Assembly (NCBI RefSeq): GCF_003054265.1
Contig: NZ_QBKT01000007.1
Location: forward strand, 1 to 64,000
Source: Kordia periserrulae
GTDB taxonomy: Bacteria; Bacteroidota; Bacteroidia; Flavobacteriales; Flavobacteriaceae
Direction of reading: 5' to 3'
Length of the DNA: 64,000 nucleotides
Numbering within the stretch: the first letter of the stretch is position 1; every line of letters starts with the position of its first letter. Positions 8,505-52,267 of this stretch are shown piece after piece. Under the pieces are notes generated by a model. It ran no database searches. It worked only from the letters and a program-made list of their open reading frames with translations, and had not been told where the DNA came from. The translations under genes and the position numbers were made by a program.

Positions 8505-8559
8505 TTCGTAAGAAATTTATTTTTTTAACAGCGAAATACACTGCAAATCAGTAACTTTA
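8505..8559 (+). promoter_or_regulatory. Peptide-gene promoter: TTCGTAAG element and -7 box
   Basis: TTCGTAAG starts 81 bp before the ATG at 8586, and TAACTTTA (like the Bacteroidetes -7 box TAnnTTTG) starts 47 bp after it. The same 47-bp spacing occurs at five other genes in the window, but this copy has two changes from TTCATAAA. Confidence 0.55.
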
Positions 8560-8585
8560 ATTTCTAACCAAAAAACTTACTAATC

Positions 8586-8819
8586 ATGAAAAAGCAACAT
8601 TTTCAGAAGAAATTAGCTTTAAAAGCTACCCGAGTTTCGAATTTAACAGCAATTAACGGTGGAAATACACCTGTTCGTTTTACGGAAAACCCTTGTATTA
8701 TTTCAGATGTGGAAACGTGTACAACGGTTCAAGAGCCTGTTAAATTGACGGAAGCACTGCGTTGCACGCATACGATTGGAAACGGCCTAAATCCTGATGG
8801 AACGCCGTGTACTGTGTAG
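8586..8819 (+). CDS. Cys/Thr-rich peptide with GG-type leader
   Basis: A 77-residue peptide. The N-terminal ~27 residues are basic and end in a double glycine (KKLALKATRVSNLTAINGG). This resembles leader peptides of Bacteroidetes ribosomal peptides, including the class I lanthipeptide-like type (KKLxLKxxxVxNL). The remaining 50 residues hold four Cys and many Thr, as expected of a core that could be cross-linked or disulfide-bonded. No modifying enzyme or exporter is nearby. It is a single gene between the TPP riboswitch and its own terminator. Its promoter has the element shared by several other peptide genes here. Whether the mature peptide is antimicrobial, a signal or structural is unknown. 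Confidence 0.75.
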   Translation: MKKQHFQKKLALKATRVSNLTAINGGNTPVRFTENPCIISDVETCTTVQEPVKLTEALRCTHTIGNGLNPDGTPCTV

Positions 8820-8858
8820 CTTTTGCTTAAAAATAGTTAGTATTGCCTGAAAACCTTC

Positions 8859-8902
8859 GCGCCAAGAATGATTGTTATCAGTTGTTTTTGGCGTTTTTTT
8901 TT
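8859..8902 (+). terminator. Terminator after the small peptide gene
   Basis: GCGCCAA and TTGGCG pair around a ~22-nt loop and are followed by nine T. Confidence 0.75.
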
Positions 8903-8906
8903 AAAG

Positions 8907-10454
8907 TTACTTAATCTGATGCGTGGGCTTTAGCAAATCGTTGATGGTTTTTACTGGATTGAATGTAATGAGTGGAACTTCTACAAAAACGGTATTCCAA
9001 AACGCCATGCCACCATTCCACAAGCCAGGCAATTCCAACGCTTTTATTTTTTTTCCACTTTGGGATTTAGAAGCGATAAAGTACGATTTACGGTCTACAA
9101 ATTTTGTCAAATCAAATTTGTTTCCTTGATAGTCTTTTACGCCGCATACGATATCTACTGGATTGAAATGTGTTGCCAGTTTTTGAATACCTTGATGGTA
9201 CTCATTCTTCCTGTCAATTTGTACAGATTCTACTATTTGTAGTGACACCGCGCCATTTTCATGTTTTACCCAAAATGGTCCGCCGCCAGGTTCGCCTTCA
9301 TTTTTTACCATACCGCACACACGAATTGGTCGGTTCAGCTTGTCGATGAGATATTCTATTTGATATTTTTGAGAATATTTTTCAAATTCCTCACTGATTT
9401 CCACATTGAGTTTGGTGTATAAAAAGCGTAAAATAGTATGCAATTCTTCATTAGAAACACCATTGTGCAGCATTTTCATATACTTAAATGCTTTTTGCTG
9501 AAGTGCAATGAGTTTTCCTGCCAGAATTTTTTTGTAACGTGATATTTCGTCCGAATAGGTGTTCACAACTACATTGTCTATGTTTTTAATGAAAATCACA
9601 TCAGCTTCAATAGCATTTAGATTTTCAATCAACGCGCCATGACCGCCAGGGCGAAACACCAAATTTCCCGAAGCGTCTATAATTGGTCTGTTTTTTTGAT
9701 CGACGGCAATGGTGTCTGTTTCCTCGAGTTGATAGGAATATGAAATGTCAAAATCGCAGCCTGTTTTTTCTTTGATTTGTGGAAGAATGTTGTTTTCTAT
9801 TGTTTTGAATTTGTCGTAATGTTGTTTGGAAATGGTAAAGTGCAACTTTGCTTTTCCAGCATTGCAGGCGTAACTTGCCGCTTCAAATAAATGCTCTTGA
9901 AAAGGTGTAGAAAGATGCTTTTTGTATTTGTGAAAAGGCAACAATCCTTTTGGATAGTTTCCGTAGTTTAAGCCTGTTTCCGCCAAAAGCGTATGTACAA
10001 AATCATGATTGAACTCGTCTGGTTTTTTGATGCGATCGAGTTCGGTTTTGTTCATGAATTGTACCACATCATTATAGAATGGAAACTTTTCTAACCCAAT
10101 AAAAAACAATCGAATTTCTGGTTCTTTTTCTTTGTTGATATACGAATTGATGGAATCCTTTTTGGGATTGTAGTTTTCGAGAAACTTATACAGAAATTTA
10201 AACATTCGCGTTGCTGCGCCAGAAGCAGGAATGAATTTAACGATTTCTAGCGATGCTCGTTCGCTTTCATATAGCGAAACACATGCTTCTTTATCGGCTT
10301 CGTTGAGTTGTAAAATTCCTTTTTCTATACTCGCATGCGCTGTAATATCGGCATGCGGAATTTTTTTTTCGAACTTATGAAGCTGCTCTTCCACTTCAGA
10401 TACAGACAATCCTTTTGCTGCTATTTGTTCGATATGTTTTTTTGAAAAGTTCAA
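8907..10454 (-). CDS. DUF4301 family protein
   Basis: The 515-residue product matches the DUF4301 family of Bacteroidetes (residues ~1-500, e.g. KFIPASGAATRMFK and LVFRPGGHGALIENLNAIEADVIFIKNIDN). The PASGAATRM and GGHGALIENL segments recall the nucleotide-binding loops of sugar nucleotidyltransferases, but the reaction is not established. No signal peptide. The start is a TTG that overlaps the stop of the kinase gene by 4 bp (TTGA), suggesting translational coupling; no ATG exists nearby. It is the last gene of a four-gene overlapping set with pnuC. Confidence 0.85.
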   Translation of the reverse strand: MNFSKKHIEQIAAKGLSVSEVEEQLHKFEKKIPHADITAHASIEKGILQLNEADKEACVSLYESERASLEIVKFIPASGAATRMFKFLYKFLENYNPKKDSINSYINKEKEPEIRLFFIGLEKFPFYNDVVQFMNKTELDRIKKPDEFNHDFVHTLLAETGLNYGNYPKGLLPFHKYKKHLSTPFQEHLFEAASYACNAGKAKLHFTISKQHYDKFKTIENNILPQIKEKTGCDFDISYSYQLEETDTIAVDQKNRPIIDASGNLVFRPGGHGALIENLNAIEADVIFIKNIDNVVVNTYSDEISRYKKILAGKLIALQQKAFKYMKMLHNGVSNEELHTILRFLYTKLNVEISEEFEKYSQKYQIEYLIDKLNRPIRVCGMVKNEGEPGGGPFWVKHENGAVSLQIVESVQIDRKNEYHQGIQKLATHFNPVDIVCGVKDYQGNKFDLTKFVDRKSYFIASKSQSGKKIKALELPGLWNGGMAFWNTVFVEVPLITFNPVKTINDLLKPTHQIK

Positions 10455-11008
10455 TGGTGTTGTAATAGTTTGTTTATTGTTGCAACGGCTTTTTGAAAAC
10501 GAGTTTCTGCATCACCTTTCAACAATACATAAGGTTGATTATAGGTTTTTAACGTTTGCTGAAATTCCAAAAATGAGGTTTCTCTTTTGTAGGGCAAATC
10601 TCTTATGGAATCCGCAATCCAAGGTGTATCAATATAAGTTAAAAAATAGAAATTCGCCGTACTTTTTTCCACATATTTTTCAAGCGTTTTACTTTTAAAT
10701 GTTGGATAATATATTCGCGCATACGTCAGCGTTGACAATATATTTGTATCGCAAATCATCATAGCACTTCCCGAAGCTTCGCATTCCAAACGCAATTGTC
10801 CTTTGGCGATGGGCATGACATCGTTCTCGGTTAAAATTTCCCCTTTTTGCTGTTTTTCTTCGGCGTAGATTCGCGCAAATTCTGGCACAAAAGCAGCCTT
10901 GTAATGCGCTGCCAATTGCTTAGCAAGCGTTGTTTTCCCTGAAGATTCAGGTCCTACGATTACGATTTTGAAGCGAGTTGCTTTTTGTTTTTCAAGGTTT
11001 TTCTCCAT
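10451..11008 (-). CDS. NadR-like P-loop kinase (vitamin/nucleoside trapping)
   Basis: A 185-residue ATPase with Walker A GPESSGKTT at residues 19-27. It resembles the ribosylnicotinamide-kinase part of NadR and lacks the N-terminal adenylyltransferase domain. Such kinases phosphorylate the vitamin brought in by a PnuC-type channel and so trap it. Its gene overlaps the 3' end of pnuC by 49 bp and the next gene by 4 bp, so the link to PnuC is firm. The substrate is either nicotinamide riboside (family rule) or thiamine (neighbour genes), which sequence alone cannot settle. The frame extends upstream to 11119 inside pnuC, but the ATG at 11008 starts just before the P-loop. Confidence 0.85.
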   Translation of the reverse strand: MEKNLEKQKATRFKIVIVGPESSGKTTLAKQLAAHYKAAFVPEFARIYAEEKQQKGEILTENDVMPIAKGQLRLECEASGSAMMICDTNILSTLTYARIYYPTFKSKTLEKYVEKSTANFYFLTYIDTPWIADSIRDLPYKRETSFLEFQQTLKTYNQPYVLLKGDAETRFQKAVATINKLLQHH

Positions 11009-11667
11009 GCGATGTATCCAAAGATGGCTAAAATTAAGAAAATTGCAAATTGTATTGCTGTAAAACCGAGTCCTTTTACAAAATAGAGTGGTATTGAAAT
11101 CAGGTTTCCGAAAATCCAAAAAATCCAGTTTTCAATCTTTTTATTCGCCATAAGCCACATTCCCGAAAAGAAAACACCTGTGGTAAAAATGTCTAAATAG
11201 GGTGTGATTTCATTGATTTCTTCTACAGAACCAAAATGCGAGAAAAAGAAATCAATGGTTTCAGAAACATTACGATGCACATCTATTCTCCCAACTTGAA
11301 TGTACACCACATAGGTAAACGCTGCCGTAAATAGAAAAATACCAATTGTAGTCAGTTTTTGCATAAAGGTAGTCCGTGAAATTTCAAGCTTTGCATCTTC
11401 CCGAATCCGCGTCCACATATACCAACCGTAAATACTCATAATTGTATAATACACGTTGATAATCATATCGCCATACAGTACGAAATTGTAACAGATGTAA
11501 ATGTAAATAAGCGTACTGATGATTCCTGTTGGATATACCCAAATTTTCTCTTGCTTGGCAAACCAAACGCTGGCAATTCCAAAACCTGCTGCTAAAATTT
11601 CCAACAGCACATCAAACCAATAGTATCCTTGATATTGCTCAAGTAAAAAGTTAAAAAACTGGCTCAT
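10960..11667 (-). CDS. pnuC: PnuC/PnuT-type vitamin transporter
   Basis: The 235-residue inner-membrane protein has about seven to eight membrane segments and PnuC family features (WFAKQEKIWVYPTGIISTLIYIYICY; YTIMSIYGWYMW; NWIFWIFGNLISIPLYFVKGLGFTA). PnuC proteins carry nicotinamide riboside by facilitated diffusion; the PnuT branch carries thiamine. The gene directly upstream encodes a thiamine-binding protein and overlaps it by 17 bp. A TPP-riboswitch-controlled outer-membrane receptor also lies near. For these reasons thiamine is a serious alternative substrate. A kinase gene overlaps its 3' end. Confidence 0.9.
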   Translation of the reverse strand: MSQFFNFLLEQYQGYYWFDVLLEILAAGFGIASVWFAKQEKIWVYPTGIISTLIYIYICYNFVLYGDMIINVYYTIMSIYGWYMWTRIREDAKLEISRTTFMQKLTTIGIFLFTAAFTYVVYIQVGRIDVHRNVSETIDFFFSHFGSVEEINEITPYLDIFTTGVFFSGMWLMANKKIENWIFWIFGNLISIPLYFVKGLGFTAIQFAIFLILAIFGYIAWRKTLKNKKQLASKS

Positions 11668-11911
11668 AGTTGCTTCTGTCGGATTTTACGATTTTCATGG
11701 TGAGTAATATGTTTTTTTCGTTTTCAAACGCCACTTTGATTTCCGAAGTCAGTAATTTCATAATGCCGTCATAATCGCCAAAAATCTGCGTACTGAGCGG
11801 ATTTTCCAAAACAGTATAGCCCGAAACACGTAATTTTTTGATAAAATTGATAATCGGTGTTTCAAAATCATCTTGTAAAGGAGTTAGCGTGAGTTCTACG
11901 GATATGTTCAT
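11651..11911 (-). CDS. Thiamine-binding protein (MTH1187/YkoF family)
   Basis: An 86-residue protein of the MTH1187/YkoF-like family: SVELTLTPLQDDFETPIINFIKKLRVSGYTVLENPLSTQIFGDYD is the characteristic ferredoxin-like half. Members with known ligands bind thiamine or hydroxymethylpyrimidine. Its 3' end overlaps pnuC by 17 bp, so the two are translated from the same message. It is the first gene of the four-gene set. The short gap before it (11912-11957) contains only a T/G-rich TTGTTTGTTTTTTG stretch and no clear promoter. Confidence 0.85.
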   Translation of the reverse strand: MNISVELTLTPLQDDFETPIINFIKKLRVSGYTVLENPLSTQIFGDYDGIMKLLTSEIKVAFENEKNILLTMKIVKSDRSNYEPVF

Positions 11912-11957
11912 TTTTTTTGTCTGTTGTTTGTTTTTTGTTGTTTGTTATTCGTATTTT

Positions 11958-14850: not shown

Positions 14851-15016
14851 TAAAATTTTCAAGCAACCAACCATACGATTTGACATCTAAATTAAAACAA
14901 GCACTACATAACAATCATTGTATTTTTTAGTAGAAAAATTATAGGTTGCACATAATATTGGGCAAGACTGGCGTTATATTTGATAGTATTTTTTTATCCC
15001 ACAAATTCCGTTATTC

Positions 15017-16702
15017 ATGCATACATACATTCGTTTTCTTTGTATTTCACTTTTTTGTTTCGTACAAATTGGTATTGCACAACAAGTAGATTCACTTCAA
15101 AAAAAATCCTATCAAGAACTTAAAAAACAATACACAACATTAGAATATACCAATCCTGCGTTGGCACAACAATATGCCATAGCGTTGCTAAAAAAAGCCA
15201 AGCAAGAAGGCAATCTCCAAGAAAAAAATGCGGCGTATTTATTAAATGCTTCTTCTGAAAATTATTTTGGAAATATGAAAGCGTCGTTAGCCTATATTGA
15301 TTCCTGTATTACCTATGCAAATACTCAAAAAAATGATGCTTTGCTCATTAAAGCAATCAGCCATAAAGGGAAAACGTATTTTACATTTGGAAAATATAAC
15401 GACGCCATCACCTATTATTTGCAATTGGATTCTTTAGCAAGAAAAACCCAAAACATACGCTATCAAATTTATTCCAATCACAGCATTGGTTCTATCAAAA
15501 ATATTATGGGCGATCATAAAGGTGCAACGGAATTATTCTTAAAGAACAAGGAAATCATCACACCCATTATGGAAGCGCGAAACTATCATACCTTGTACCT
15601 AAACATGTTGATTGGACTCATTTCCGCATATACCTATTTTGATGTTGATGCAGCCGCTGCGTATTTGCCAGAACTTAAAAAAGTAAGTCTTCAAATTAAC
15701 GACAAAGATGCGCTGAGTTATTATTTTTCACTAAAAGGAATTGTCAATTACAAACGAAAAGAATACGACGAAGCATTGGTAACGTTAGCAAAGGCAGACA
15801 GTTTGGTTTCCGAATTGGGAATTCAACGAAATCTATATCCTATTTATCGCTTTCGCGGGAAGACGTATTACGAGAAAAAAATGTTCCCAGAAGCAATTGC
15901 TGCTTTTGAAGCGATAAAAACACTACAAAAAGAAATTGAGTTTGACGATTTTCAGTATCGAGAAGTCCTTTCCTTACTCGCCAACAGTTACGAACAAATT
16001 GACAACACGGAAAAAGCTTTAGAAAATTACCGTTTGGCGCATAAGTACTCATATACAGATACCATTCAAGAAGCAATTCGGTACACTATTTTAAAAGAAT
16101 ACGATAAAAAAACACTCGAAAGTAAGATTGAAACATTAAAAATTAAATCGAATGAAAAAACCAAACAGAATATATCATTGTGGTTTATTTCTAGCGGATT
16201 GTTAGTGTCGCTCGTCATCTTATTTCTAATTTTCAAAAAACAACAACGCGACAACCGACAAAAATTTGATGCGTTATTACAAAAATTAGCTTCAGAAGAT
16301 ACCCAAAAAGAGCCTGAAGACAGCAATTCTAAATTTCAAATTTCAAACGAAAAAATCACTAAAATCTTAGAAGGACTTGAAAAGTTTGAAGCATCCAATA
16401 CATTTTTACAACAAAATACAAGTTTGGTGACTGTTGCTAAAAAATTGAACACCAATACGACTTATTTATCGCAAATTGTAAACGAGCAAAAAGGCATGAC
16501 ATTCAAAAATTACATTACCGAATTGCGCATCAATTATGTGCTTCGCAAACTGAAAAACGATAAAGTGATGCGCTCGTATACCATAAAAGCCATTGCGAAA
16601 GAATTAGGTTTTAAAAGTGAAGGTGCCTTTTCGAGAGCCTTTAAAAAGCAAACAGGGATTTATCCGTCATTTTTCATTAAAAATCTCACCGCCATTTCAT
16701 AA
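15017..16702 (+). CDS. Transmembrane TPR-AraC regulator 1
   Basis: The 561-residue protein has a signal peptide (residues 1-21, ending IGIAQQ), tetratricopeptide-like helices from ~30 to 380, and one membrane segment at ~388-406 (NISLWFISSGLLVSLVILFLIF). A basic linker follows, then a C-terminal AraC-type DNA-binding domain at ~465-561. The layout puts the TPRs in the periplasm and the DNA-binding domain in the cytoplasm: a one-component membrane regulator. Two small GG-type peptide genes lie directly downstream. It is closely similar to the gene at 17541-19238, e.g. TIKAIAKELGFKSEGAFSRAFKKQTGIYPS. A TATATTTG box (14975-14982) stands 42 bp before the ATG. The ligand is unknown. Confidence 0.88.
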   Translation: MHTYIRFLCISLFCFVQIGIAQQVDSLQKKSYQELKKQYTTLEYTNPALAQQYAIALLKKAKQEGNLQEKNAAYLLNASSENYFGNMKASLAYIDSCITYANTQKNDALLIKAISHKGKTYFTFGKYNDAITYYLQLDSLARKTQNIRYQIYSNHSIGSIKNIMGDHKGATELFLKNKEIITPIMEARNYHTLYLNMLIGLISAYTYFDVDAAAAYLPELKKVSLQINDKDALSYYFSLKGIVNYKRKEYDEALVTLAKADSLVSELGIQRNLYPIYRFRGKTYYEKKMFPEAIAAFEAIKTLQKEIEFDDFQYREVLSLLANSYEQIDNTEKALENYRLAHKYSYTDTIQEAIRYTILKEYDKKTLESKIETLKIKSNEKTKQNISLWFISSGLLVSLVILFLIFKKQQRDNRQKFDALLQKLASEDTQKEPEDSNSKFQISNEKITKILEGLEKFEASNTFLQQNTSLVTVAKKLNTNTTYLSQIVNEQKGMTFKNYITELRINYVLRKLKNDKVMRSYTIKAIAKELGFKSEGAFSRAFKKQTGIYPSFFIKNLTAIS

Positions 16703-16750
16703 AACGAAGGCATTTCTATTTTTGTCAAATCCGCGTATGCTCTATATTCG
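16696..16750 (+). promoter_or_regulatory. Peptide-gene promoter: TTCATAAAAC element and -7 box
   Basis: TTCATAAAAC starts 80 bp before the ATG at 16776 and overlaps the stop codon of the regulator gene. TATATTCG starts 47 bp after it. Confidence 0.65.
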
Positions 16751-16775
16751 ACCAATAAACATTAACATACATATC

Positions 16776-16994
16776 ATGATGAAAAAACAAAAATTGAACC
16801 TCAATTCCTTAAGATTAAAAAAAGTTAGTATTGCAACATTAAACTTGATTAAAGGTGCAGATGAACAACAAGCAATGGATGAAACTCTTAAAACGTATTG
16901 CTGCTCGCAGTTTCCATATTGCATACATACACTAACCACAAGACCTGACAGCTTAAATCCGGGAGATGACGAAAATGGTGAAGGCAGCAAATAA
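16776..16994 (+). CDS. Lanthipeptide-like precursor peptide
   Basis: A 72-residue peptide beginning MMKKQKLNLNSLRLKKVSIATLNLIKGAD. The KLNLNxxxLKKVSIATL stretch is the leader motif of class I lanthipeptide-like precursors of Bacteroidetes; the expected double glycine is KGA here. The core has a CC pair and a third Cys (TYCCSQFPYCIHTLTTR), several Thr, and an acidic tail. It lies 73 bp after a TPR-AraC regulator and 94 bp before another GG peptide gene. The frame is open further upstream inside the regulator gene, but the double ATG at 16776 begins the leader motif. No lanthionine synthetase is in the window. Confidence 0.75.
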   Translation: MMKKQKLNLNSLRLKKVSIATLNLIKGADEQQAMDETLKTYCCSQFPYCIHTLTTRPDSLNPGDDENGEGSK

Positions 16995-17006
16995 GTATCC
17001 CTCTTT

Positions 17007-17061
17007 TTTATAAAACGAACTTTGGATAAGTTGTAAACGCTGAAAATCCATTCTAATTTCA
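17007..17061 (+). promoter_or_regulatory. Peptide-gene promoter: TTTATAAAAC element and -7 box
   Basis: TTTATAAAAC starts 82 bp before the ATG at 17089; TAATTTCA starts 47 bp after it. Confidence 0.55.
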
Positions 17062-17088
17062 CAGTATTAATCATTAAAAATTTTTATT

Positions 17089-17310
17089 ATGTTAAAAAAG
17101 ATTTCAGCATTACAATCGGTAAGAGCGTTAAGTAAAAAAGAGCAACATGCAATTAACGGTGGCGCAGGTTATTTATGTTCGTCTACTATTATGCCAGGTT
17201 TATATCATTCTGAGGAAGATATTAGTGGTGATTATGGTAACGGGCACGTAATTACTTGCCATGCTGCAGAAAGAAAAGCAACTTCAGGCGGTTCACAAGC
17301 AGCAAGTTAA
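17089..17310 (+). CDS. GG-leader peptide (LSKKEQ type)
   Basis: A 73-residue peptide with a bacteriocin-type leader: LKKISALQSVRALSKKEQHAINGG. The LSKKEQ..INGG form is shared with the peptide at 28863-29078 and is a different leader class from the lanthipeptide-like one. Cleavage after GG would give a ~49-residue product rich in Ser, Gly and His with two Cys. Double-glycine leaders are usually removed by a peptidase-containing ABC exporter, which is not in the window. It is followed by a strong terminator. Confidence 0.78.
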   Translation: MLKKISALQSVRALSKKEQHAINGGAGYLCSSTIMPGLYHSEEDISGDYGNGHVITCHAAERKATSGGSQAAS

Positions 17311-17331
17311 TCCGTATTGTATTTAGTTAAC

Positions 17332-17370
17332 AAAATCACAGTTAAAAATCTTTTTTAGCTGTGATTTTTT
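17332..17370 (+). terminator. Terminator after the GG peptide gene
   Basis: AAAATCACAG pairs with CTGTGATTTT, and the inner TTAAAAA/TTTTTTA can extend the stem. A T run follows. Confidence 0.85.
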
Positions 17371-17540
17371 GTTGAATAGATTTACTTTACAATCAAAAAA
17401 ATAAATCGCAAACGATACCCAAAGTATGTTTTGAGACCACAAGATTATATTAAAAAACAAAATTTCCCGTACTTTTTTATATATTGATGACGTCATTGCA
17501 CTGTTATTCACGTAGCAGTCCTCTTTCTAATTGTTACCAC

Positions 17541-19238
17541 ATGAGTTTTCGTTACCATTTTATTGTATTGCTATGTCTTTGTTTTGTTGGAACTATTTCT
17601 GCACAGGATCGGGATTCTATTTCAGAATATTCATATCAAGAATTGAATAAGCGTTTTTCAAAATATAGATATAATGAACCAAAAAAAGCAAAACTATATG
17701 CTGATATTATGCTTGAAAAAGCAATTTCAGAAAAGAATCGCTTACAAGAAAGTAATGCTTATGTATTGTTGGCTCGCTCAGAAAGTTATTTCGGAAATCT
17801 GACAAATGCTTTAGATTTTGTTGATAAAAGTATCGCTTATGCTACAGTGGAAGAAAATTATGATTTGTATGTAAAAGCCATTCATAGAAAAGGAATGACC
17901 TACTACAACTTTGGAAAATATGATGAAGCGATATCATTTTACTTAAAAATAGATTCTATTGCGAGAATCACGGATAATATTGCGTATCAACTCAAATCCA
18001 ATCAAAGTATTGGCGCTGTAAAAACGGTGTTAGGCGACCATAAAAGTGCCGCTAAGTTGTTTTTGGAAAACGAAACTATTTTAGAACCACTGAAAAATAA
18101 TCCAGCGTATGCGTCGCAATATGCAAGTACTATTATTGGACTTTGCTCTGCACATACGTATTTTGACATTCCCAAAGCAGAAGAATATCTTTCTAAATTA
18201 AAAGACATCAGTACTACCTCAGCAGATAAAGATGCCTTATCGTATTACTACATGTTGAAAGGTATCATTTTTTATCTTAAAAAAGATTACAATGCAGCAT
18301 TGGAAACCTTAGAAACTGCCGACAGTTTGGTAACTTCGTTGGGAAGAAAGCGAAATTTATTTCCTATGTATCGATTTAAAGGAAAAGCATATTATGAACT
18401 TGGTGCTTTTGAAAAAACGATTGAAGTGTATGAAAAAATTAAGGAGTTACAAAAAGATATAAATTTTGATCATTTCAAATATCAGGAAGTGATTGCTACG
18501 TTGGCGTTGAGCTACGATACTATCAACAATATTGAAAAAGCGATTGAAAATTTTACGCTTGCGCAGGAATTGGTAAAAGCAAACGATACTATCAAACAAG
18601 CGATTAATTACGAAATCATCAATAAATACGACCACAAAATATTTCAAACTAAAATTGACCGACTCGTTGCGAAAAGCGAAGAAAAAGAGCAACAAAACCT
18701 ATCACTCATATACACCAGTTTAGTTTTAGCAACAATAATTATTTTACTTCTTATTCTATATCAAAAAAACAAAACAAACAATCAAAAAAAGTTTAAAGCA
18801 TTAGTCCAAAAACTTGAAGATGCTGAAAAAAATAGTGTAGAAAAACCTGCAACCCAAAAAACAAAAGAGAAGAAAGTTCCCGACGAAAAAATAACTGAAA
18901 TTTTAAAAGGCTTACAAAAATTTGAAGATTCACATGCGTTTTTACATAAAAACACGAGCTTGACATCTGTCGCAAAAAAACTCAACACAAACACTTCTTA
19001 TTTATCCAAAACAATCAACGCGCACAAAGGAATGAGTTTTATCAATTACATCACCAAATTACGTATCGATTACGCTTTAAAGAATTTAAAAAATGACAAA
19101 GTTTTACGTTCATACAGTATCAAAGCCATTGCCGAAGAACTAGGTTTTAAAACCGAAGGTGCTTTTTCAAGAGCTTTCAAAAAGCAAACAGGCATTTACC
19201 CTTCCTATTTTATAAAAAACCTAACCTCTAATTCATAA
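17541..19238 (+). CDS. Transmembrane TPR-AraC regulator 2
   Basis: A 565-residue paralogue of the preceding regulator with the same build. It has a signal peptide (1-22, ending GTISAQ), periplasmic TPR helices to ~375, a membrane segment at ~387-406, and an AraC-type domain at ~472-565 (KLNTNTSYLSKTINAHKGMSF; IKAIAEELGFKTEGAFSRAFK). The ATG at 17541 begins the signal peptide; the open frame reaches a TTG at 17484 but that extension has no purpose. A single peptide gene and a dockerin-like lipoprotein gene follow. The pair 15017/17541 probably arose by tandem duplication together with the peptide gene. Ligand and targets are unknown, though the shared element near each peptide gene is the obvious candidate operator. 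Confidence 0.88.
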   Translation: MSFRYHFIVLLCLCFVGTISAQDRDSISEYSYQELNKRFSKYRYNEPKKAKLYADIMLEKAISEKNRLQESNAYVLLARSESYFGNLTNALDFVDKSIAYATVEENYDLYVKAIHRKGMTYYNFGKYDEAISFYLKIDSIARITDNIAYQLKSNQSIGAVKTVLGDHKSAAKLFLENETILEPLKNNPAYASQYASTIIGLCSAHTYFDIPKAEEYLSKLKDISTTSADKDALSYYYMLKGIIFYLKKDYNAALETLETADSLVTSLGRKRNLFPMYRFKGKAYYELGAFEKTIEVYEKIKELQKDINFDHFKYQEVIATLALSYDTINNIEKAIENFTLAQELVKANDTIKQAINYEIINKYDHKIFQTKIDRLVAKSEEKEQQNLSLIYTSLVLATIIILLLILYQKNKTNNQKKFKALVQKLEDAEKNSVEKPATQKTKEKKVPDEKITEILKGLQKFEDSHAFLHKNTSLTSVAKKLNTNTSYLSKTINAHKGMSFINYITKLRIDYALKNLKNDKVLRSYSIKAIAEELGFKTEGAFSRAFKKQTGIYPSYFIKNLTSNS

Positions 19239-19286
19239 ACCAGAGGTATCTATTGTAGTTCTCAACCCTTTTGTTTGCTATATTTC
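19232..19286 (+). promoter_or_regulatory. Peptide-gene promoter: TTCATAAACC element and -7 box
   Basis: TTCATAAACC starts 79 bp before the ATG at 19311 and overlaps the regulator's stop codon. TATATTTC starts 47 bp after it. TAATTCATAAACCAG here recurs exactly at 19495-19509. Confidence 0.65.
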
Positions 19287-19310
19287 AGTCATTAAATTTT
19301 AAAATTGAAA

Positions 19311-19481
19311 ATGATGAAAAACAAAAAAGAAATGTCTCTAAGACTCCGAAAAAAAAGTATTGCTAATTTAAGTTCTATCAAAGCAGGACATTTACCGCCT
19401 GATACTGACCCTGATACAGGACCTAAACAATGTCCAACAACAGTCGACCCTAGAACAGATTTTGCTTCTAACGAATGCTAA
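19311..19481 (+). CDS. Small lanthipeptide-like leader peptide
   Basis: A 56-residue peptide read directly from the sequence. It starts with a double ATG and a basic leader MSLRLRKKSIANLSSIKAG, matching the (K)xLxLxKKSIANL motif of the other peptides. The core is short and rich in Pro, Asp and Thr with two Cys (GPKQCPTTVDP... and a C-terminal NEC). It lies 72 bp after TPR-AraC regulator 2. A small hairpin (19503-19527, arms AAACCAG/CTGGTTT) follows and may end the transcript. Confidence 0.72.
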   Translation: MMKNKKEMSLRLRKKSIANLSSIKAGHLPPDTDPDTGPKQCPTTVDPRTDFASNEC

Positions 19482-19497
19482 AACACGTTGCCTTTAA

Positions 19498-19552
19498 TTC
19501 ATAAACCAGCGTTACAAAAACTGGTTTTTACATAAAATCCGTTTTAATTTCA
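19498..19552 (+). promoter_or_regulatory. Promoter of the dockerin-like lipoprotein gene
   Basis: TTCATAAACC starts 84 bp before the ATG at 19582; TAATTTCA starts 47 bp after it. Part of the element also forms the left arm of the hairpin 19503-19527, so the two roles overlap. Confidence 0.5.
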
Positions 19553-19581
19553 CTTCATAATTAATTTTTAAAATCGATATT

Positions 19582-20487
19582 ATGAAACAGTTAAAATGGA
19601 TTTTTTCTTTAACAATAAGTCTTCTTTTAATGACTTCTTGTTCTCACGAAAACAGCGCAAGTTTTGATGAATCGACATCAATAACAAAGGAAGTTTTAAA
19701 AAACTATCCAAAAGAAATTACAATTGACAATTGGCAACAGTTTGTAACAGCTCCTAAGGAAGTGATTGAGTATTTTACCACTAAGGAAGAGAAACCAAGT
19801 AGCAAACCTAACGAGTTTGTTGAAAAAGACGGATTTGGAAACTCTTTTAGTTCTTTGGAATTTGGTAAAATTCAAGTACAAAACGGTGGAAGTCTGACAA
19901 ATAACTGGCTAGGAAATACACGAATTTCAACATACAATTTCTCTGATTTAAATGACGAACTAGGACATACGCTTTCCGAAGACTCCAATTTTGGAAATGA
20001 TAGCAATTACTTCTTTTCTATAAATACATCTACAGATGTAATGTGTTTCTTTTATGATGATATTACTAATGAGGTATTTTCAGGTGCGCAATGGCGTAAT
20101 GGTATCAGCGTATTGGACTTGGTTTTAATCGCCAGACATGTTGAACAAATTGAATGTTTTGAAGGTGCATGGCAATTCTTAGCTGCCGATGCTAACGGTG
20201 ATGGCGCTATCAATGAATTAGACACCAATGTATTACAAAATCTTATTCTGTATGAAATCAATGAACTTCCAGAAGTTCCAACCAGCGGATACAATCAGCC
20301 AGTTATTTATTTTCCGCAGGAAACTTATGCTATTTTTCAGAACTTCATCACTATAAATCCGTGCACTTTTGATGAATCTTTGTTTGTACCTTTCTATGAA
20401 ATCATTTCCTGTCAACGCATTAGCGATGAGCAATTTGACCGATTTGCCATAAAACGTGGTGATGTTAGTGGAAATTGGATTTTTTAA
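19582..20487 (+). CDS. Lipoprotein with dockerin-like EF-hand pair
   Basis: The 301-residue product has a lipoprotein signal (lipobox MTSCS). A ~60-residue dockerin type I-like segment lies at about 173-235: GISVLDLVLIARHVEQI, then AADANGDGAINELDTNVLQNLILYEINELP. The second calcium loop DANGDGAINELD is intact, while the first is degenerate. Dockerins bind cohesins in cellulosomes; isolated ones in Bacteroidetes have unknown partners. The protein is probably at the cell surface or periplasm. Its promoter carries the same element as the peptide genes, so it may belong to the same regulon as TPR-AraC regulator 2. Confidence 0.7.
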   Translation: MKQLKWIFSLTISLLLMTSCSHENSASFDESTSITKEVLKNYPKEITIDNWQQFVTAPKEVIEYFTTKEEKPSSKPNEFVEKDGFGNSFSSLEFGKIQVQNGGSLTNNWLGNTRISTYNFSDLNDELGHTLSEDSNFGNDSNYFFSINTSTDVMCFFYDDITNEVFSGAQWRNGISVLDLVLIARHVEQIECFEGAWQFLAADANGDGAINELDTNVLQNLILYEINELPEVPTSGYNQPVIYFPQETYAIFQNFITINPCTFDESLFVPFYEIISCQRISDEQFDRFAIKRGDVSGNWIF

Positions 20488-20531
20488 AATATAAGTTAGT
20501 TGGATAGTTTAATAGAGTATAACTTCCATAG

Positions 20532-20561
20532 AAAACGCTTCGATTAATTTTGAAGCGTTTT
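20532..20561. terminator. Bidirectional terminator
   Basis: A perfect 10-bp stem (AAAACGCTTC with GAAGCGTTTT) stands between the convergent genes and touches the stop codon of the minus-strand one. Confidence 0.85.
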
Positions 20562-21316
20562 TAATATCCTGTCACCAACAAACCACGCGCGCCACGCATG
20601 CCACATTTTTGATAGTTGTGATACGCCTTTGCAGCTCGTTCTCTAATGGCTGCATCCGATTCATTCAAAATCCAGCCGTCAATTGCCCATTTTAGGGTAT
20701 ATGCTTCGGGCGACATCAATCCTGTAGACCAAATCAACGGATTCGCGCCAGTTTGTTTCAAATATGGTTTAAAATAATCTTTGCTAATACAGGCTAAAAT
20801 AATCGCATCACGCTTATTTGTATTTTTGGGTTTAAATGTTTCTTTCAAACGAAACTCCATCAATCCATCATGACCAACATACGCAAGCAAATCAGAACTT
20901 CCGCCAAAATGCACTTTTTTATTGTCAATCAAAATTTCTGTTGAATTTTCACCGCTACATGCTTGTAAAAAGTCAATCGTTGTTTGTTTGATAAACTTTC
21001 CATCGTACGCATCTGCTAACAAATAGGTATCTGTCGTTTTATGTTTAAAAAGGATTCGCTCTAAAATTTTCGGATTGTTTGAAGGTAAGATTTTCACCAA
21101 TTCCCAATCCTTACTACGCTTAAAATGTGTCTTCACACCATACAACGCTCCCCAATACAAATTGGTTCGTGGATTTTGACCATTTCCCAACGCTTTCGAC
21201 ACAGGCACAATTCCTTGATGCACATTATCACACAACGCCACAAATACGTGAATTTTCTTTTGTGCAAAAGCAGTGAAAGTCATGCAGAAAAATAGCAGCG
21301 TAATAATTGATTTCAT
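20561..21316 (-). CDS. Secreted protein, possible clan CD-like cysteine peptidase fold
   Basis: A 251-residue protein with a signal peptide (MKSIITLLFFCMTFTAFAQ). I do not recognise a named family. Two segments look like the catalytic blocks of clan CD (caspase/legumain/gingipain) peptidases: hydrophobic residues followed by His-Asp-Gly (LLAYVGHDGLMEF), and hydrophobic residues followed by Ala-Cys (AIILACISKDYF) ~35 residues later. The canonical motif is HG rather than HD, so this is tentative. The C-terminal part is rich in conserved Trp and Arg. It is a single gene between a bidirectional terminator and the divergent M3 peptidase gene. Confidence 0.6.
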   Translation of the reverse strand: MKSIITLLFFCMTFTAFAQKKIHVFVALCDNVHQGIVPVSKALGNGQNPRTNLYWGALYGVKTHFKRSKDWELVKILPSNNPKILERILFKHKTTDTYLLADAYDGKFIKQTTIDFLQACSGENSTEILIDNKKVHFGGSSDLLAYVGHDGLMEFRLKETFKPKNTNKRDAIILACISKDYFKPYLKQTGANPLIWSTGLMSPEAYTLKWAIDGWILNESDAAIRERAAKAYHNYQKCGMRGARGLLVTGY

Positions 21317-47955: not shown

Positions 47956-48538
47956 AATTTGTGTTGTTTATTGGTTGAACGATTAATATTCCAGTTCCTG
48001 TAATGTCAGTAACTTCTACCACAGTACCTGTTTTGAGTGTTTCATTGCTATCGGCAAGTGCGTCGAGTTCGCGCAAAGCACCTTGTACATTGACGTGTAC
48101 CTTTCCTATTTTGGAGCGATTTGGACCAATGCTTAAATACACTTCGCCTACGTTTCCAACGGCATTTTCAAGTTTGAGAGTTCCACTACTTACCAATTTG
48201 TTGATATAGTAAATGAGTGTTGCCATAACAAACATCATTGCCAAACCTGCTAGCGTTGAAATTAAAATAGTGACACCTTTTCCAAACCCTGCATTGATAC
48301 AAGAGATTCCTGCCCAACTAAAAATGGTAAAGAATGCTACCAAGTTTTTGAAGGTAAAAAACTGAAATCCGATTCCAGTATCACTTTCTATTTCGGCATC
48401 TACGTCACCATCAACGCCGTCTGCATCGCCTACTAAAAACGTAGTGATTAAGACAAATACAAAAATCGTTGATGATATGGCCGCAATGATCCAATACGAT
48501 TTTTCAAAAGTTGTTAATGCTGAAAACCAATCTCCCAT
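47918..48538 (-). CDS. NfeD-like membrane protein
   Basis: A 206-residue protein with three membrane segments (about 15-35, 65-85 and 90-112) and a C-terminal OB-type domain at ~125-200 (LENAVGNVGEVYLSIGPNRSKIGKVHVNVQG). This is the NfeD/YuaF layout. It lies directly upstream of and overlaps the flotillin gene and likely binds it at the membrane. The loop near residues 37-53 is rich in Asp (GDADGVDGDVDAE). Confidence 0.9.
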   Translation of the reverse strand: MGDWFSALTTFEKSYWIIAAISSTIFVFVLITTFLVGDADGVDGDVDAEIESDTGIGFQFFTFKNLVAFFTIFSWAGISCINAGFGKGVTILISTLAGLAMMFVMATLIYYINKLVSSGTLKLENAVGNVGEVYLSIGPNRSKIGKVHVNVQGALRELDALADSNETLKTGTVVEVTDITGTGILIVQPINNTNYDKSTPLIANAK

Positions 48539-48578
48539 GATGTACGGTTTTTAAGGTGTTATTATTATTGTTTGAAAT

Positions 48579-49739
48579 TTAGTCTTTGGTTAGCAATACG
48601 GATACTGCATTTCCTCCAAATCCGACCGCGTTGACTAAAATCGTGTTTAGTGGTTTCGGTTGTTTTTCTTTTTCAAGATACGGAATTGAAACAAATTTTT
48701 GTTGCTGTATCATTAAAATCGCTAATTCTACACTTAATATTCCTGAAGCTCCAAAAGTGTGACCTATTTTCCATTTATTCGTAGTTAGTTTTGGAATTTC
48801 GTTACAAAATATTTTTTTGATAGCTTGATATTCTGCCAAATCACCTTTAATCGTTCCTGGCGCGTGCAGAACGATGGCATCAATTTCTTCTGGCAAAAAA
48901 TCTTGCAACGCCATACGCATCGATTTTTCAAAACAGATACCTTCTGCCGAGATTGACGTATTGTGCGTTAAAATTTCTGTGGCATAGCCAATGCCTCTAA
49001 TTTTTGCTAAAGCGTTACTTTTTTCGCCTTTTTCTAAGCAAATTGCTGCTGCGCCTTCGCCCAAAATCATGGTGTTGTGATTTTTTTCTAAGTCTAATGA
49101 AAGACAAGGATAAGCAGCTTCATTTTTAGCGTAAATGTGTAATGCTTGCATTTGCGCAATGGTGAATGGTGTGAGCGGCGCTTCACTTCCTCCAACTAAA
49201 AATTTTTCTGCCATTCCCGATTGCAACCAGGCAATTCCGTTCAACAAGGCATGCAAAGCGGTAGAACAGGTAATGGAATGTGAAATTTGTGGACCAGCAG
49301 TTTGCAAATCGTGCGCAACCCATGACGAAATATTTCCTAAAGTTGTGGTTGGCGAACTTAGTGTTGCAGCATGTTCATTTTTTAAATATTCTTGATGGTA
49401 TTTTTCAAAAAGTGTGGTGGCACCTCTTGAAGAACCGATGTTGATTCCGAAGTCGTTTTCCGCGTTCCAACCAGCATTTTCAACCGCTATGCGCGATGCT
49501 AATATTGCATACAATACACTATCGTCTAGATTTTTATATTTAGCATTGGAATTTTTTAAAGTTTCAACAGCTACTTTTGCATCTTTAGAAAGTGACGCTG
49601 TATATATGTTTTGTTGTTGAATTGTTTCTTGGTGAAAACAATGAGAATCATTGGTGTACTGTTTCCAAATTTCGGCTTGCGCAATTCCCAGTGGAGACAC
49701 CGAGCCCAAGCCTGTTATTGAAATACCATCATGCATCAT
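48579..49739 (-). CDS. Beta-ketoacyl synthase family protein
   Basis: A 386-residue ketosynthase with an intact triad: C158 in HSITCSTALHALL, His in VLHAPGT (~290) and His in WKIGHTFGASGI (~328). It elongates acyl chains by condensation with malonyl-thioester; the chain is unknown. In several flavobacteria a stand-alone ketosynthase lies in the biotin cluster. Here it is ~2.6 kb from bioA, with the TPR-AraC regulator and two peptide genes in between, so a role in making the pimeloyl precursor is possible but inferred. Confidence 0.9.
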   Translation of the reverse strand: MMHDGISITGLGSVSPLGIAQAEIWKQYTNDSHCFHQETIQQQNIYTASLSKDAKVAVETLKNSNAKYKNLDDSVLYAILASRIAVENAGWNAENDFGINIGSSRGATTLFEKYHQEYLKNEHAATLSSPTTTLGNISSWVAHDLQTAGPQISHSITCSTALHALLNGIAWLQSGMAEKFLVGGSEAPLTPFTIAQMQALHIYAKNEAAYPCLSLDLEKNHNTMILGEGAAAICLEKGEKSNALAKIRGIGYATEILTHNTSISAEGICFEKSMRMALQDFLPEEIDAIVLHAPGTIKGDLAEYQAIKKIFCNEIPKLTTNKWKIGHTFGASGILSVELAILMIQQQKFVSIPYLEKEKQPKPLNTILVNAVGFGGNAVSVLLTKD

Positions 49740-49888
49740 AGAATCCTAAATTAAGAGTGCTAATATCGTAAGAAATGTGATGATTTGCTAACATTTGTAC
49801 ACGAGTTTATATTTCTGTTCGTTCGTAACAAATACCAAATAAAAGTGTCTTTATAATACATTATTTTTGCAGTACTAAACTACCATTT

Positions 49889-51592
49889 ATGAATTTCCGA
49901 ATATTTTTAGTCATTGTTATTGCGTTTTTCGCCTTGCCAATTTCAGCAAATCCGCAAGATTCTTTGTCTATTTTTAAAGAAAAGAAACTATCACAACAAT
50001 TTGCATACGTAAAAGAAAGACTGAATACTTCCGTAGAAATGATGCCCTATATTAACGAGTTGCTAAAAGCTGCACGTTCAGAAAAAGACACCAATTTTAT
50101 GGCGCAATCGTATTATTTGAAGCATCGCGTGTATCGAAAAAATAAATTGTATTCAGAGGCACATGCGGCGATTGACAGTGCGATTTCGTTAGCACAATTG
50201 CAGCAGAAAGATTCGTTGTTAGGTTCGTTTTATCATGCTAAAGGCGCTACTTTTTATATCGCTTCTCAATACAGTGAAGCGTTGGAATTGTATTTAAAAG
50301 CCTATGATGTGATGCGTGTTTCAGGTTCTATTAGTAACCGATTGACGTTGGAGTTTGATGTGGCAACTATCAAATTGAAAGTTGGAAAAACTGCAGAAGC
50401 ATTAGCCGAATTTGATAACATCATTCGCTCGTACGATTCCTTGCTTACACAAAAACCAGATTCGCGCTTTTTAAAAATTCGATTTGTAAAAATGTTGAAT
50501 AATACCGCTAAATCCTATACAGAAGCAGGCATGTTTCAACGCGCGCATGACTTGTATTCGAAGAGTTTGGTATTGAGTGAAACTACTGATTTTTTATCTG
50601 GAAAGTGTATCGCTATTGGCGGAAAAGGAAATGTATTTACGGCACAACAAGCCTACGAAAAAGCACTGGTAAAGTTAGACGAAGCTTTAAAAATTTCCAC
50701 AAATCACGAAGATTTATATTTGATTACACCTTTTTTATTGCTTGATAAAGGAAAATGTTGGTTTGGGTTGAATGATTATGAGAAAGCATTGAACTATTTT
50801 AGGGAAACCGACGAAATTATTCAAGAAAAACAATTGAATTTTGTGGGATTGGACGAAACCTATCAGTGGTTGGCAAAAACATACGTTCAGCTTGGAAACT
50901 ATGAAAAAGCCACAGAAATTTATGACCAGTATATTGAACGAAAAAATATAAGTACTGACAGACGTTTTGAGTTGTACAAAACTATTTTTGAAGGTTACGA
51001 TTTAAAAAACGTCGAATACCGCGCTGATAAAGCAGAAAAAAGTTCCAATTTGTTTAAAAATTATTTTTCACAAGCAATGGTCGCGATTGTGCTTATTGTA
51101 ATTGCATCAGGAATTTTTTTCGTGTATTATAGAAATCGTCAAAAGCAGAAATTAGCAAAATTTCACACACTCATTCAAGAACTTAAAGAAAAAGAAAGTT
51201 CCACAGAAAACGCATCACAGAAAGGCTATGTGTTGTCCGATGAAAAAGCCGCGAAGATTTTGGAGTATTTGGAAAAATTAGAAGCAAAACAATTCTTTCT
51301 TGACGCTAAATACAACTTGGCTACATTGGCGAAAAAGTGTCATACCAATTCGAGTTATCTGTCAAAAGTCATCAATCAATACAAGGAGAAAACTTTTTCA
51401 GAATATATGAATGATATGCGAATTGATTATGTGTTGACTGCCTTAAAGAATGATAAAAAATTGCGTTCGTATACGGTGCAATCTATTGCAGAAGAAATTG
51501 GTTTTAAGAAGTCCGAATCATTTGCCAAAGCATTTAAAAAACGTACAGGATTCAACCCTTCATATTATATTAAAAACCTTGAAAATCTGTAG
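49889..51592 (+). CDS. Transmembrane TPR-AraC regulator 3
   Basis: A 567-residue protein of the same design as the two at 15-19 kb. It has a signal peptide (1-21, ending LPISAN), TPR helices to ~375, a membrane segment at ~393-412 (AMVAIVLIVIASGIFFVYY), and an AraC-type domain at ~475-565 (NLATLAKKCHTNSSYLSKVINQ; AEEIGFKKSESFAKAFKKR). It is more diverged from the other two. Two small peptide genes follow, one on each strand, both preceded by an identical 19-bp palindromic element. A TATTTTTG box (49862-49869) lies 27 bp before the ATG. Confidence 0.88.
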   Translation: MNFRIFLVIVIAFFALPISANPQDSLSIFKEKKLSQQFAYVKERLNTSVEMMPYINELLKAARSEKDTNFMAQSYYLKHRVYRKNKLYSEAHAAIDSAISLAQLQQKDSLLGSFYHAKGATFYIASQYSEALELYLKAYDVMRVSGSISNRLTLEFDVATIKLKVGKTAEALAEFDNIIRSYDSLLTQKPDSRFLKIRFVKMLNNTAKSYTEAGMFQRAHDLYSKSLVLSETTDFLSGKCIAIGGKGNVFTAQQAYEKALVKLDEALKISTNHEDLYLITPFLLLDKGKCWFGLNDYEKALNYFRETDEIIQEKQLNFVGLDETYQWLAKTYVQLGNYEKATEIYDQYIERKNISTDRRFELYKTIFEGYDLKNVEYRADKAEKSSNLFKNYFSQAMVAIVLIVIASGIFFVYYRNRQKQKLAKFHTLIQELKEKESSTENASQKGYVLSDEKAAKILEYLEKLEAKQFFLDAKYNLATLAKKCHTNSSYLSKVINQYKEKTFSEYMNDMRIDYVLTALKNDKKLRSYTVQSIAEEIGFKKSESFAKAFKKRTGFNPSYYIKNLENL

Positions 51593-51615
51593 TTTATAGA
51601 GAAAAAATTACATGC

Positions 51616-51634
51616 CGATTTTCATAAAAATCGT
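51616..51634 (+). promoter_or_regulatory. Palindromic operator candidate upstream of peptide gene
   Basis: CGATTTTCATAAAAATCG plus T. Its TTCATAAAA core starts at 51621, 80 bp before the ATG at 51701. The same 19 bp occurs upstream of the opposite peptide gene in the same relative orientation. At +47 the sequence TTTCTTCG (51668) is a poor -7 box. Confidence 0.72.
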
Positions 51635-51700
51635 TTCCCTTTCTTGGGATTGTATAAGATATTTGAATTTCTTCGCAGGTAAATTCACTTAATATTTAAT

Positions 51701-51901
51701 ATGAAAACTATGATTCCCAAGAAATTAACTTTAAAGAAAGTAACTGTAGCAATTCATCAGGTATATGGCGGAGAAAATACGTCTCAAGAAAATCCAGAAG
51801 ACACGGAAAATCCGACACTATCTAGCGCGTATCACCAACCGACTGAAAATGACGACACCAATCGTATGTTTTTAAGTGTCGATGTAGATATTTGTGTGTA
51901 A
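51701..51901 (+). CDS. Small peptide with lanthipeptide-like GG leader
   Basis: A 66-residue peptide; the leader MKTMIPKKLTLKKVTVAIHQVYGG has the KKLTLKKVTVAI motif and a double glycine. The core is acidic, rich in Asn, Asp, Glu and Thr, and has a single Cys near the C-terminus (VDVDICV). It is 108 bp downstream of TPR-AraC regulator 3. The lack of more Cys makes lanthionine bridging less likely than in the other peptides. A terminator follows. Confidence 0.75.
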   Translation: MKTMIPKKLTLKKVTVAIHQVYGGENTSQENPEDTENPTLSSAYHQPTENDDTNRMFLSVDVDICV

Positions 51902-51923
51902 GAGTTTAAATCACTTCAATTTG

Positions 51924-51955
51924 AAAAACCAGCGAAGTATATTTCGCTGGTTTTT
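51924..51955. terminator. Bidirectional terminator between the two peptide genes
   Basis: AAAAACCAGCGAA pairs with TTCGCTGGTTTTT, with T following on the plus strand. Confidence 0.9.
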
Positions 51956-51971
51956 TTTGATGTTGTGTTAC

Positions 51972-52157
51972 CTATTGACAAAAACACCAGCTTTGAGTTC
52001 CTCCATAGCGAGAAGGTGCTGGACAATTACAAATAGGACCAATAAATGTTTTTGTGTACGTGTCTTCCGTATCCCATCCGCCAGACACATTTTCAATTTG
52101 TAAGTTAGAAACTGCTTTTTTGTTTAAGCTTAACGACTTTAATTGTTGTTTTTTCAT
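51972..52157 (-). CDS. Cys-rich small peptide with GG leader
   Basis: A 61-residue peptide; the leader MKKQQLKSLSLNKKAVSNLQ has the LSLNKKAVSNL motif and ends NVSGGW. The core after GG is ~33 residues with four Cys in two C-x-C pairs (PICNCPAP and SWCFCQ), plus Thr and two Trp. It converges on the peptide gene at 51701 and shares its 19-bp upstream element. The ATG at 52157 is chosen; the frame extends to 52181. Confidence 0.75.
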   Translation of the reverse strand: MKKQQLKSLSLNKKAVSNLQIENVSGGWDTEDTYTKTFIGPICNCPAPSRYGGTQSWCFCQ

Positions 52158-52185
52158 ATTGTGATTTTTGTGATTAAACAATACT

Positions 52186-52267
52186 CAAAACTAAGAGTGT
52201 TTTTGGGCTGACACAAGCCACTATATACGGTTTTCATGAAAAGTAGACACGATTTTTATGAAAATCG
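52186..52267 (-). promoter_or_regulatory. Peptide-gene promoter with two operator-like sites
   Basis: On the minus strand the 18-bp palindrome of the opposite gene lies at 52267-52250 (TTCATAAA core from 52262). A second copy TTCATGAA starts at 52240, 83 bp before the ATG and 22 bp from the first, about two helical turns. TAGTTTTG, a good -7 box, starts at 52193, 47 bp after the second copy. Confidence 0.7.

Follow-up and report, generated by a model that had tools for sequence, protein, structure and literature searches.

Activators of the AraC/XylS family, such as AraC, ToxT and MarA, possess a C-terminal domain with two helix–turn–helix (HTH) motifs (PF12833) and act from a site adjoining the −33/−35 region. 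In MarA and AraC it is helix 6 that reads the DNA, and the sites of the family are tandem, asymmetric and about 17 bp long. The RRNPP receptors are regulators combining tetratricopeptide repeats (TPRs) with an HTH and are encoded beside small peptide genes; a cytoplasmic N-terminal HTH is followed by the TPRs and the protein binds an imported peptide. We have analysed a stretch of 64,000 nucleotides from Kordia periserrulae (contig NZ_QBKT01000007.1, positions 1–64,000, assembly GCF_003054265.1; hereafter the window), which carries three TPR-AraC regulator genes and, upstream of nearby peptide genes and one lipoprotein gene, the element TTYATAAA. An initial annotation had assigned this element, at seven genes, to a single activator. 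The layout is mostly real and it is not one shared activator site, so that the earlier observation is borne out in part. A palindrome of about 24 bp, found behind TPR–membrane–AraC regulator genes in Kordia, has the element as its A/T-rich centre. The regulatory architecture is real, and it is both wider in extent and more specific than had been proposed.

The Kordia regulators resemble the AraC/XylS activators in their C-terminal domain, with PF12833 and PF00165 both above cut-off in all three window regulators as expected of the double HTH, and in a site adjoining the −33/−35 region. They differ in being membrane-anchored with a putative TPR sensor, in the palindromic form of the site, the arms of which covary with helix 6, and in number, with 17 or more paralogs per genome having mostly private arms. 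The palindromes are not the tandem sites of the family. With the RRNPP receptors the proteins share the combination of TPRs and an HTH and a gene position beside small peptide genes. Their layout is different: the order is TPR–transmembrane segment (TM)–AraC, the TPRs are predicted to lie outside the membrane and the HTH is the C-terminal AraC domain.

The peptides also have described counterparts. Class I lanthipeptide precursors of Bacteroidetes have LxLxKx5L and GG leaders, according to part of a survey that limited the distance from LanC to precursor (PMC7268733). The leaders of the Kordia peptides, with their GG-like end, resemble these by permissive patterns, and a central locus has a C39 transporter and a split LanB in common with them; the Kordia precursors differ in that most are remote from LanBC and accompanied by a regulator of their own. 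A passage of the same survey describes the prochlorosins as dispersed precursors served by one LanM (PMC7268733). Here too one enzyme set would modify many dispersed precursors (one LanB against 17 regulators in the K. periserrulae genome), although the Kordia enzymes are of class I (LanB/LanC) and a dedicated regulator and operator lie beside the precursors.

We consider it probable that each TPR-AraC gene and its adjoining peptide or lipoprotein gene(s) form a self-contained cassette with a largely private operator, and we propose that the regulator binds the palindrome as a dimer and activates; the sequences point to dimeric binding, and to activation rather than repression. The observations concern the palindromes, their spacing and helical phasing, the covariation of arms with a recognition helix, repetition within cassettes and the rarity of three operators.

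The palindromes were examined at 148 distinct regulator loci from 11 genomes, drawn from the top of the hit list and deduplicated by identical 400-nucleotide tails; a few of these encode generic AraC proteins. TTYATAAA is present between −15 and +120 of the regulator stop codon in 83 of the 148 (10.3 in mononucleotide shuffles) and in eight in a control region at +600 to +735. Overlap with stop codons, a caveat in the initial annotation, recurs across loci: in 26 of 148 the regulator's own stop codon is the TAA of the element. When the core was not assumed, 83 of 130 loci had a strong palindrome upstream of the ATG of the peptide gene (dinucleotide shuffles: mean 11.3, maximum 17), 18 of the 148 having been excluded for want of a nearby leader-like peptide; in 77 of these 83 the centre falls between −93 and −72 relative to the ATG. 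Some cassettes without the TTTATAAA core keep a near-perfect palindrome, for example TACAATCGATAATTCGATAATTATCGATTGTA, and so the core is just the most frequent centre within a class of palindromes. At 96 sites chosen by the core, with the arms ignored, pairs 8, 9, 10 and 11 are Watson–Crick in 72, 71, 81 and 80 cases (shuffle maxima 40, 43, 59 and 40). The corresponding values for 26 non-redundant sites are 16, 20, 18 and 21 (maxima 15, 17, 14 and 13), and the symmetry of the arms is maintained by compensating changes. Pairs 13 and 14 show no excess pairing at these sites. At one locus (L194) the half-sites are apparently wider apart than usual.

The distance from palindrome to promoter is likewise constrained. 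In a set of 109 sites (8+/12 pairs; 21 of 130 removed for palindrome score or position), TAnnTT[TC] begins at +43 (33 loci) or +44 (four) from the centre in 37, compared with a mean of 2.4 and a maximum of 6 in 200 spacer shuffles. A second peak comprises 13 loci at +53/54 and one, at window position 51621, at +55. This is a step of about one helical turn, and the distal operator of gene 52157, at +65, is about two turns away. Spacing differs between regulator classes: the box is at 53–55 in 12 of 14 regulators with NS in helix 6 and at 43–44 in all 11 of the NRSES class, while the strict box pattern is found in only five of 41 of the ET class. TTT is commonest at +17 to +19, where a −33 element would lie, and again at +35/36. 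A palindrome of 9+/12 pairs with a box at +43/44 occurs 47 times within 1500 nucleotides downstream of regulator stops (232 kb) and 28 times in the remaining 1.33 Mb of scanned strand, where some of the matches are operators of opposite-strand genes.

The regulator might instead repress, or both repress and activate, through the same palindrome. The sign of regulation is unreadable from sequence and palindromic operators are common for repressors, but the site, which ends ahead of the −33 region and lies 43 bp from the −7 box, is placed as would be typical of an activator, and we regard this alternative as improbable. Still less probable is that the palindromes are RNA hairpins, acting in termination or processing between regulator and peptide gene. 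They do lie close behind the regulator stop and have a mean RNA pairing energy of −6.2 kcal/mol, with 27 of 92 at −8 or lower; however, the G+C content is 26%, a U-run is present in only 11 of 92, the spacing to the −7 box is fixed, extra copies precede later or oppositely oriented genes, and the sequences covary with the HTH.

Within the window, the recomputed distances from element to ATG for the sites at 8505, 16696, 17007, 19232, 19498, 51621 and 52240 are 81, 80, 82, 79, 84, 80 and 83 bp, inside the range of 79–84 bp given previously. In six of the seven, TAnnTT[TCG] starts at +47 from the element (43 after its centre), also as described; at 51621 the nearest such box begins at +59. The pattern TT[CT][AG]TAA[AG]-39-TAnnTT[TC], although fitted after the fact, occurs five times in the window, each time at one of these sites (60 dinucleotide shuffles: mean 0.35, maximum 2). 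The palindrome is clear at 19232 (9/12 pairs) and in cassette 3. The minus-strand site at 52240 stands as a weaker copy in canonical spacing, but its letters are TTCATGAA. An exact TTCATAAA lies on the same strand at 52262, 105 bp from the ATG of 52157 and within an 18 bp palindrome; this perfect distal operator, which had gone unnamed, is 22 bp further upstream.

We do not retain the site at 8505. The sequence TTCGTAAG is kept only in the nearest relative among five orthologous loci; in the other four the first half varies and the A/T-rich tail and −7 box are largely kept. As a palindrome it forms two of 12 pairs, and the nearest TPR-AraC gene in the window starts at 15017. The gene behind it (8586–8819) is a solitary leader-type peptide gene with no adjacent regulator, its A/T-rich tract and −7 box being conserved in congeners.

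Each cassette tends to have its own arms, and these vary in concert with the first residues of the second recognition helix (helix 6) in the adjacent AraC domain. The partial correlation of HTH with operator given the TPRs is 0.39, that of TPR with operator given the HTH is 0.16 and that of HTH with spacer given the TPRs is 0.13. In an alignment of 53 non-redundant HTH domains with 104 variable columns, the five columns that carry most information on arm positions 8–11 are 107, 104, 105, 100 and 106; four of these coincide with or adjoin the start of helix 6. For pairs with 50–55% identity over the rest of the aligned region, arm similarity is 0.71 when at least four of five helix-6 residues are common (210 pairs) and 0.18 when at most two are (1101 pairs). 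Regulators of the KRS-ET type have TCA on both arms (12/12) and those of the KRS-ES type have CGA on the right arm (9/9). Among held-out loci, some of which may be orthologs of those from which they were predicted, prediction from the nearest helix beat all null draws in three of four with an identical helix. Cross-talk between the neighbouring regulators 15017 and 17541 is possible because both share EGAF and similar outer arms.

Recent duplication of cassettes, with no selected operator, might by itself produce such similarity. Many cassettes are indeed paralogous or orthologous, and the correlation with the regulator extends even to the spacer (0.13, at the permutation floor). Nevertheless, the arms change together as Watson–Crick pairs, the operator correlates more strongly than the spacer and the informative protein columns are those at the recognition helix, and we judge duplication alone to be very unlikely.

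The operators are also repeated within cassettes and rare elsewhere. In the K. periserrulae genome (4.73 Mb, 38 contigs) CGATTTTCATAAAAATCG has two exact copies, 51616–51633 and 52250–52267, both in cassette 3; allowing up to two mismatches adds one site on another contig, and a reversed control pattern finds one. The 15-mer TAATTCATAAACCAG of operator 2a is found exactly at 19229 and 19495, both in cassette 2, and nowhere else at one mismatch. TCGTGATATTTATAAATATCACGA, from a cassette at C7:211119 (contig and position), has a single genomic place at up to three mismatches and its control none. These three operators, which constitute the genome-wide search, thus lie in their own cassettes with one two-mismatch exception. 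More widely, a second match to the locus's own operator (16+/20) is present downstream in 35 of 122 loci, a set in which low-scoring loci with the core were admitted, compared with 1.4% of 1190 comparisons with loci having dissimilar operators; some of these copies may be those of an adjacent cassette in the same class. They frequently lie some 80 bp upstream of the following gene, as is the case at the lipoprotein gene 19582. A match (15+/20) upstream of the regulator's own gene occurs in 12.5% of 112 loci (null 4.1%), for which tandem cassettes may account.

A fixed-spacing, activator-type site before these promoters, with the neighbouring TPR-AraC proteins as its likely binders, is supported by the sequences. 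One activator acting at all seven promoters is not. The TTYATAAA core and the 47 bp spacing that suggested it do recur across cassettes, yet each of the three window cassettes has arms of its own, which are repeated inside the cassette and track the adjacent second recognition helix, the three operators searched keep to their own cassettes apart from the one exception, and the 8505 element is kept only in its nearest relative; there is little chance that this explanation is correct.

Several observations weigh against private operators read by the adjacent regulator. All three partial correlations, including that with the spacer, are at the permutation floor, so descent contributes, and, with all loci drawn from the top hits in 11 related genomes, the counts are not independent. 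A palindrome of 24 bp is not the usual AraC-family site. Pairs 6, 7 and 12 are not above the shuffle maxima in the non-redundant set. The 8+/12 level is reached in a mean of 42.8 of 130 shuffled regions (maximum 50), so that part of the weaker sites may be due to chance, and palindromes of 9+/12 are present in 11 of 28 held-out loci against 92 of 130 in the main set. There is no TAnnTT[TCG] box at 43–44 or 53–55 in 53 of 122 operators, and the ET class keeps NAnnTT at exactly +43 in 25 of 41 but has it at +34 in 17. A simple two-residue recognition code, fixed in advance, failed on held-out loci, with none of 26 arms correct (permuted mean 1.9; 13 evaluable of 30 loci, most held-out loci having helix sequences absent from the first set), and the association between helix and arm does not appear to be a simple code. 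Nearest-helix prediction succeeded in three of nine loci with four of five residues common (mean 15.7 versus 15.2), in two of ten with three and in none of seven with two. In the window the palindromes at 16696 (7/12), 17007 (6/12) and 19498 (5/12) are weak and were assigned by core, spacing and shared halves; for gene 16776 an unguided palindrome search picked another place. The reversed control of TAATTCATAAACCAG also finds two places at up to one mismatch, so that exactness and location carry the argument for privacy.

Profile matches, the count of membrane segments and a structural model give the order TPR-TM-AraC, and a hydrophobic membrane-type segment precedes the AraC domain in 142 of 143 regulators. 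The model of the 15017 protein (built from three sequences, mean predicted local distance difference test score 78) comprises a TPR solenoid (residues 32–343), a long helix (350–423) and the AraC domain (444–560), with helix 6 at 535–546. A fold search with this model returned eukaryotic and designed TPR superhelices, with LGN at the top, and is uninformative on the signal; relatives of the AraC domain with solved structures are 6swi, 3oou, 3gbg and 2k9s.

In the mechanism that we propose, an N-terminal TPR sensor, predicted to lie outside the membrane, would be linked through one membrane segment to the AraC domain. A dimer would place the second recognition helices into both outer arms, at positions 8–11 from the centre, with the palindrome just upstream of the −33 region and on a fixed helix face relative to RNA polymerase, and the bound regulator would switch on the peptide gene. 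Because the arms differ between cassettes the channels would be largely insulated from one another. A single lanthipeptide machinery, the genes of which lie elsewhere, would afterwards modify the peptides and export them.

The peptides resemble the class I precursors of Bacteroidetes. Of 130, 35 fit the LxLxKx5L leader strictly and 122 with hydrophobic or basic substitutions (a permissive pattern with no control), 128 have a GG-like leader ending (also a permissive pattern) and 129 contain Cys and Ser/Thr after residue 20, which is a weak test. One of the six window peptide genes passes the NF038153 cut-off. Each of the 11 genomes has one match to Lant_dehydr_N (PF04738, LanB), as well as further C39 matches elsewhere. 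That of K. periserrulae, at C7:159909, is outside the window, and the window precursors are not beside LanB or LanC; its locus encodes LanC, a separate LanB C-terminal protein, HlyD, a C39 exporter and two TPR-AraC cassettes. We infer that the dispersed peptides use this single LanB/LanC machinery. In the central lanthipeptide locus (L031:1057–6940) a small protein with sigma-70 region 2 and a TPR protein precede LanC and the split LanB.

A bolder proposal is a private autoinducing channel, in which the exported peptide would be sensed outside the cell by the TPRs of its own regulator and induce its own gene, giving some 17 to 45 insulated circuits per cell (the counts of the TPR-AraC family in Kordia genomes). 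We think this unlikely. The partial correlation between TPRs and peptide core given the HTH is 0.33, against 0.18 for the HTH given the TPRs (8128 pairs), but the order is reversed in 7677 distant pairs (0.06 versus 0.15).

Members of the TPR-AraC family number 17 in the K. periserrulae genome at E ≤ 1e-60. With the threshold relaxed to E ≤ 1e-40, 47 matches are found in one congener, of which 45 are nearly full length, and 25 in another. Close relatives of the 15017 protein are found in Kordia sp. TARA_039_SRF, K. zhangzhouensis, an uncultured Kordia and K. algicida. Outside Kordia, genera of the same taxonomic family were sampled, and 11 of the 59 contain between one and five members at E ≤ 1e-60. 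Two loci in other genera (L158 and L166) share the layout before a leader-type peptide gene and two (L161 and L167) have a similar palindrome with no such gene close by; in most other-genus loci examined the layout was not found.

Titles and abstract openings of open-licence PubMed Central papers yielded no TPR-AraC operator or cassette-specific peptide regulation. Kordia is among the genera richest in biosynthetic clusters in a paper in the available part of which the word AraC is absent (PMC10734526). Excerpts of two others place TPR genes in Bacteroidales clusters for ribosomally synthesized and post-translationally modified peptides, with a possible regulatory role (PMC10352776), and near graspetide loci, with their role unclear (PMC8939145).

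The cassettes constitute a natural library of more than 100 regulator–operator pairs, with joint changes in one recognition helix and one half-site, from which the DNA specificity of the AraC family could be learned and orthogonal switches drawn. They suggest a way in which numerous dispersed precursors could be expressed singly from a genome that has one lanthipeptide machinery, and provide a handle for finding precursor genes missed by enzyme-centred mining. The features of the window cassettes are listed in Table 1.

Table 1. Regulators, operators, −7-type boxes and adjoining genes of the three window cassettes.
Feature	Position	Strand	Evidence or remarks
TPR-TM-AraC regulator 1, helix-6 start KSEGAF	15017..16702	+	PF12833 E 2.3e-17, TPR_12, model
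Operator 1a, overlaps regulator 1 stop codon	16688..16711	+	Weak palindrome, 7/12 pairs; −7 box +43
−7-type box TATATTCG	16743..16750	+	
Leader-type peptide gene	16776..16994	+	NF038153 weak, 13.9 bits (cut-off 22)
Operator 1b	16999..17022	+	Weak palindrome, 6/12 pairs; −7 box +43; 15/20 match to 1a
−7-type box TAATTTCA	17054..17061	+	
Peptide gene, other leader type LSKKEQHAINGG	17089..17310	+	No family match
TPR-TM-AraC regulator 2, helix-6 start KTEGAF	17541..19238	+	PF12833 E 4e-17
Operator 2a ACCTCTAATTCATAAACCAGAGGT, overlaps regulator 2 stop codon	19224..19247	+	9/12 pairs
−7-type box TATATTTC	19279..19286	+	
Leader-type peptide gene	19311..19481	+	No family match above cut-off
Operator 2b	19490..19513	+	18/20 match to 2a; 5/12 pairs by itself
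−7-type box TAATTTCA	19545..19552	+	
Lipoprotein-like gene, dockerin-like stretch	19582..20487	+	PF00404 24.7 bits (cut-off 22.9)
TPR-TM-AraC regulator 3, helix-6 start KKSESF	49889..51592	+	PF12833 E 3.3e-13
Operator 3a CGATTTTCATAAAAATCG	51616..51633	+	Box +55 from centre, not +43
Leader-type peptide gene	51701..51901	+	No family match
Leader-type peptide gene, convergent to 51701	51972..52157	−	NF038153 class I lanthipeptide leader, 25.2 bits (cut-off 22)
−7-type box TAGTTTTG	52186..52193	−	+43 from proximal and +65 from distal operator
Proximal degenerate operator (52240 site)	52225..52248	−	7/12 pairs; −7 box at +43
Operator 3b, identical to 3a, opposite strand	52250..52267	−	

Operators 1a and 1b have the right half TAAAACGAA in common, and a site similar to 1a is at the same place in Kordia sp. 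TARA_039. In that genome both cassette 1 operators carry a C-to-T change; other species mix C and T, and we give it no weight. Despite its cassette 1 operator half, the 17089 peptide has a leader type that resembles that of a minus-strand pair downstream of C2:471563 (L043). The Kordia sp. TARA_039 sequence aligns unbroken over 15001–17254 and resumes at 20563 (37 bp within the query), so that the regulator–peptide–lipoprotein cassette (17255–20563) is missing at this place. The lipoprotein-like gene of that cassette stands behind a cassette operator in place of a peptide gene. At a further locus (L040; G000:C7:229500–241500) the cassette core is 86 bp before the gene for a larger, secreted-looking protein and not a small peptide.

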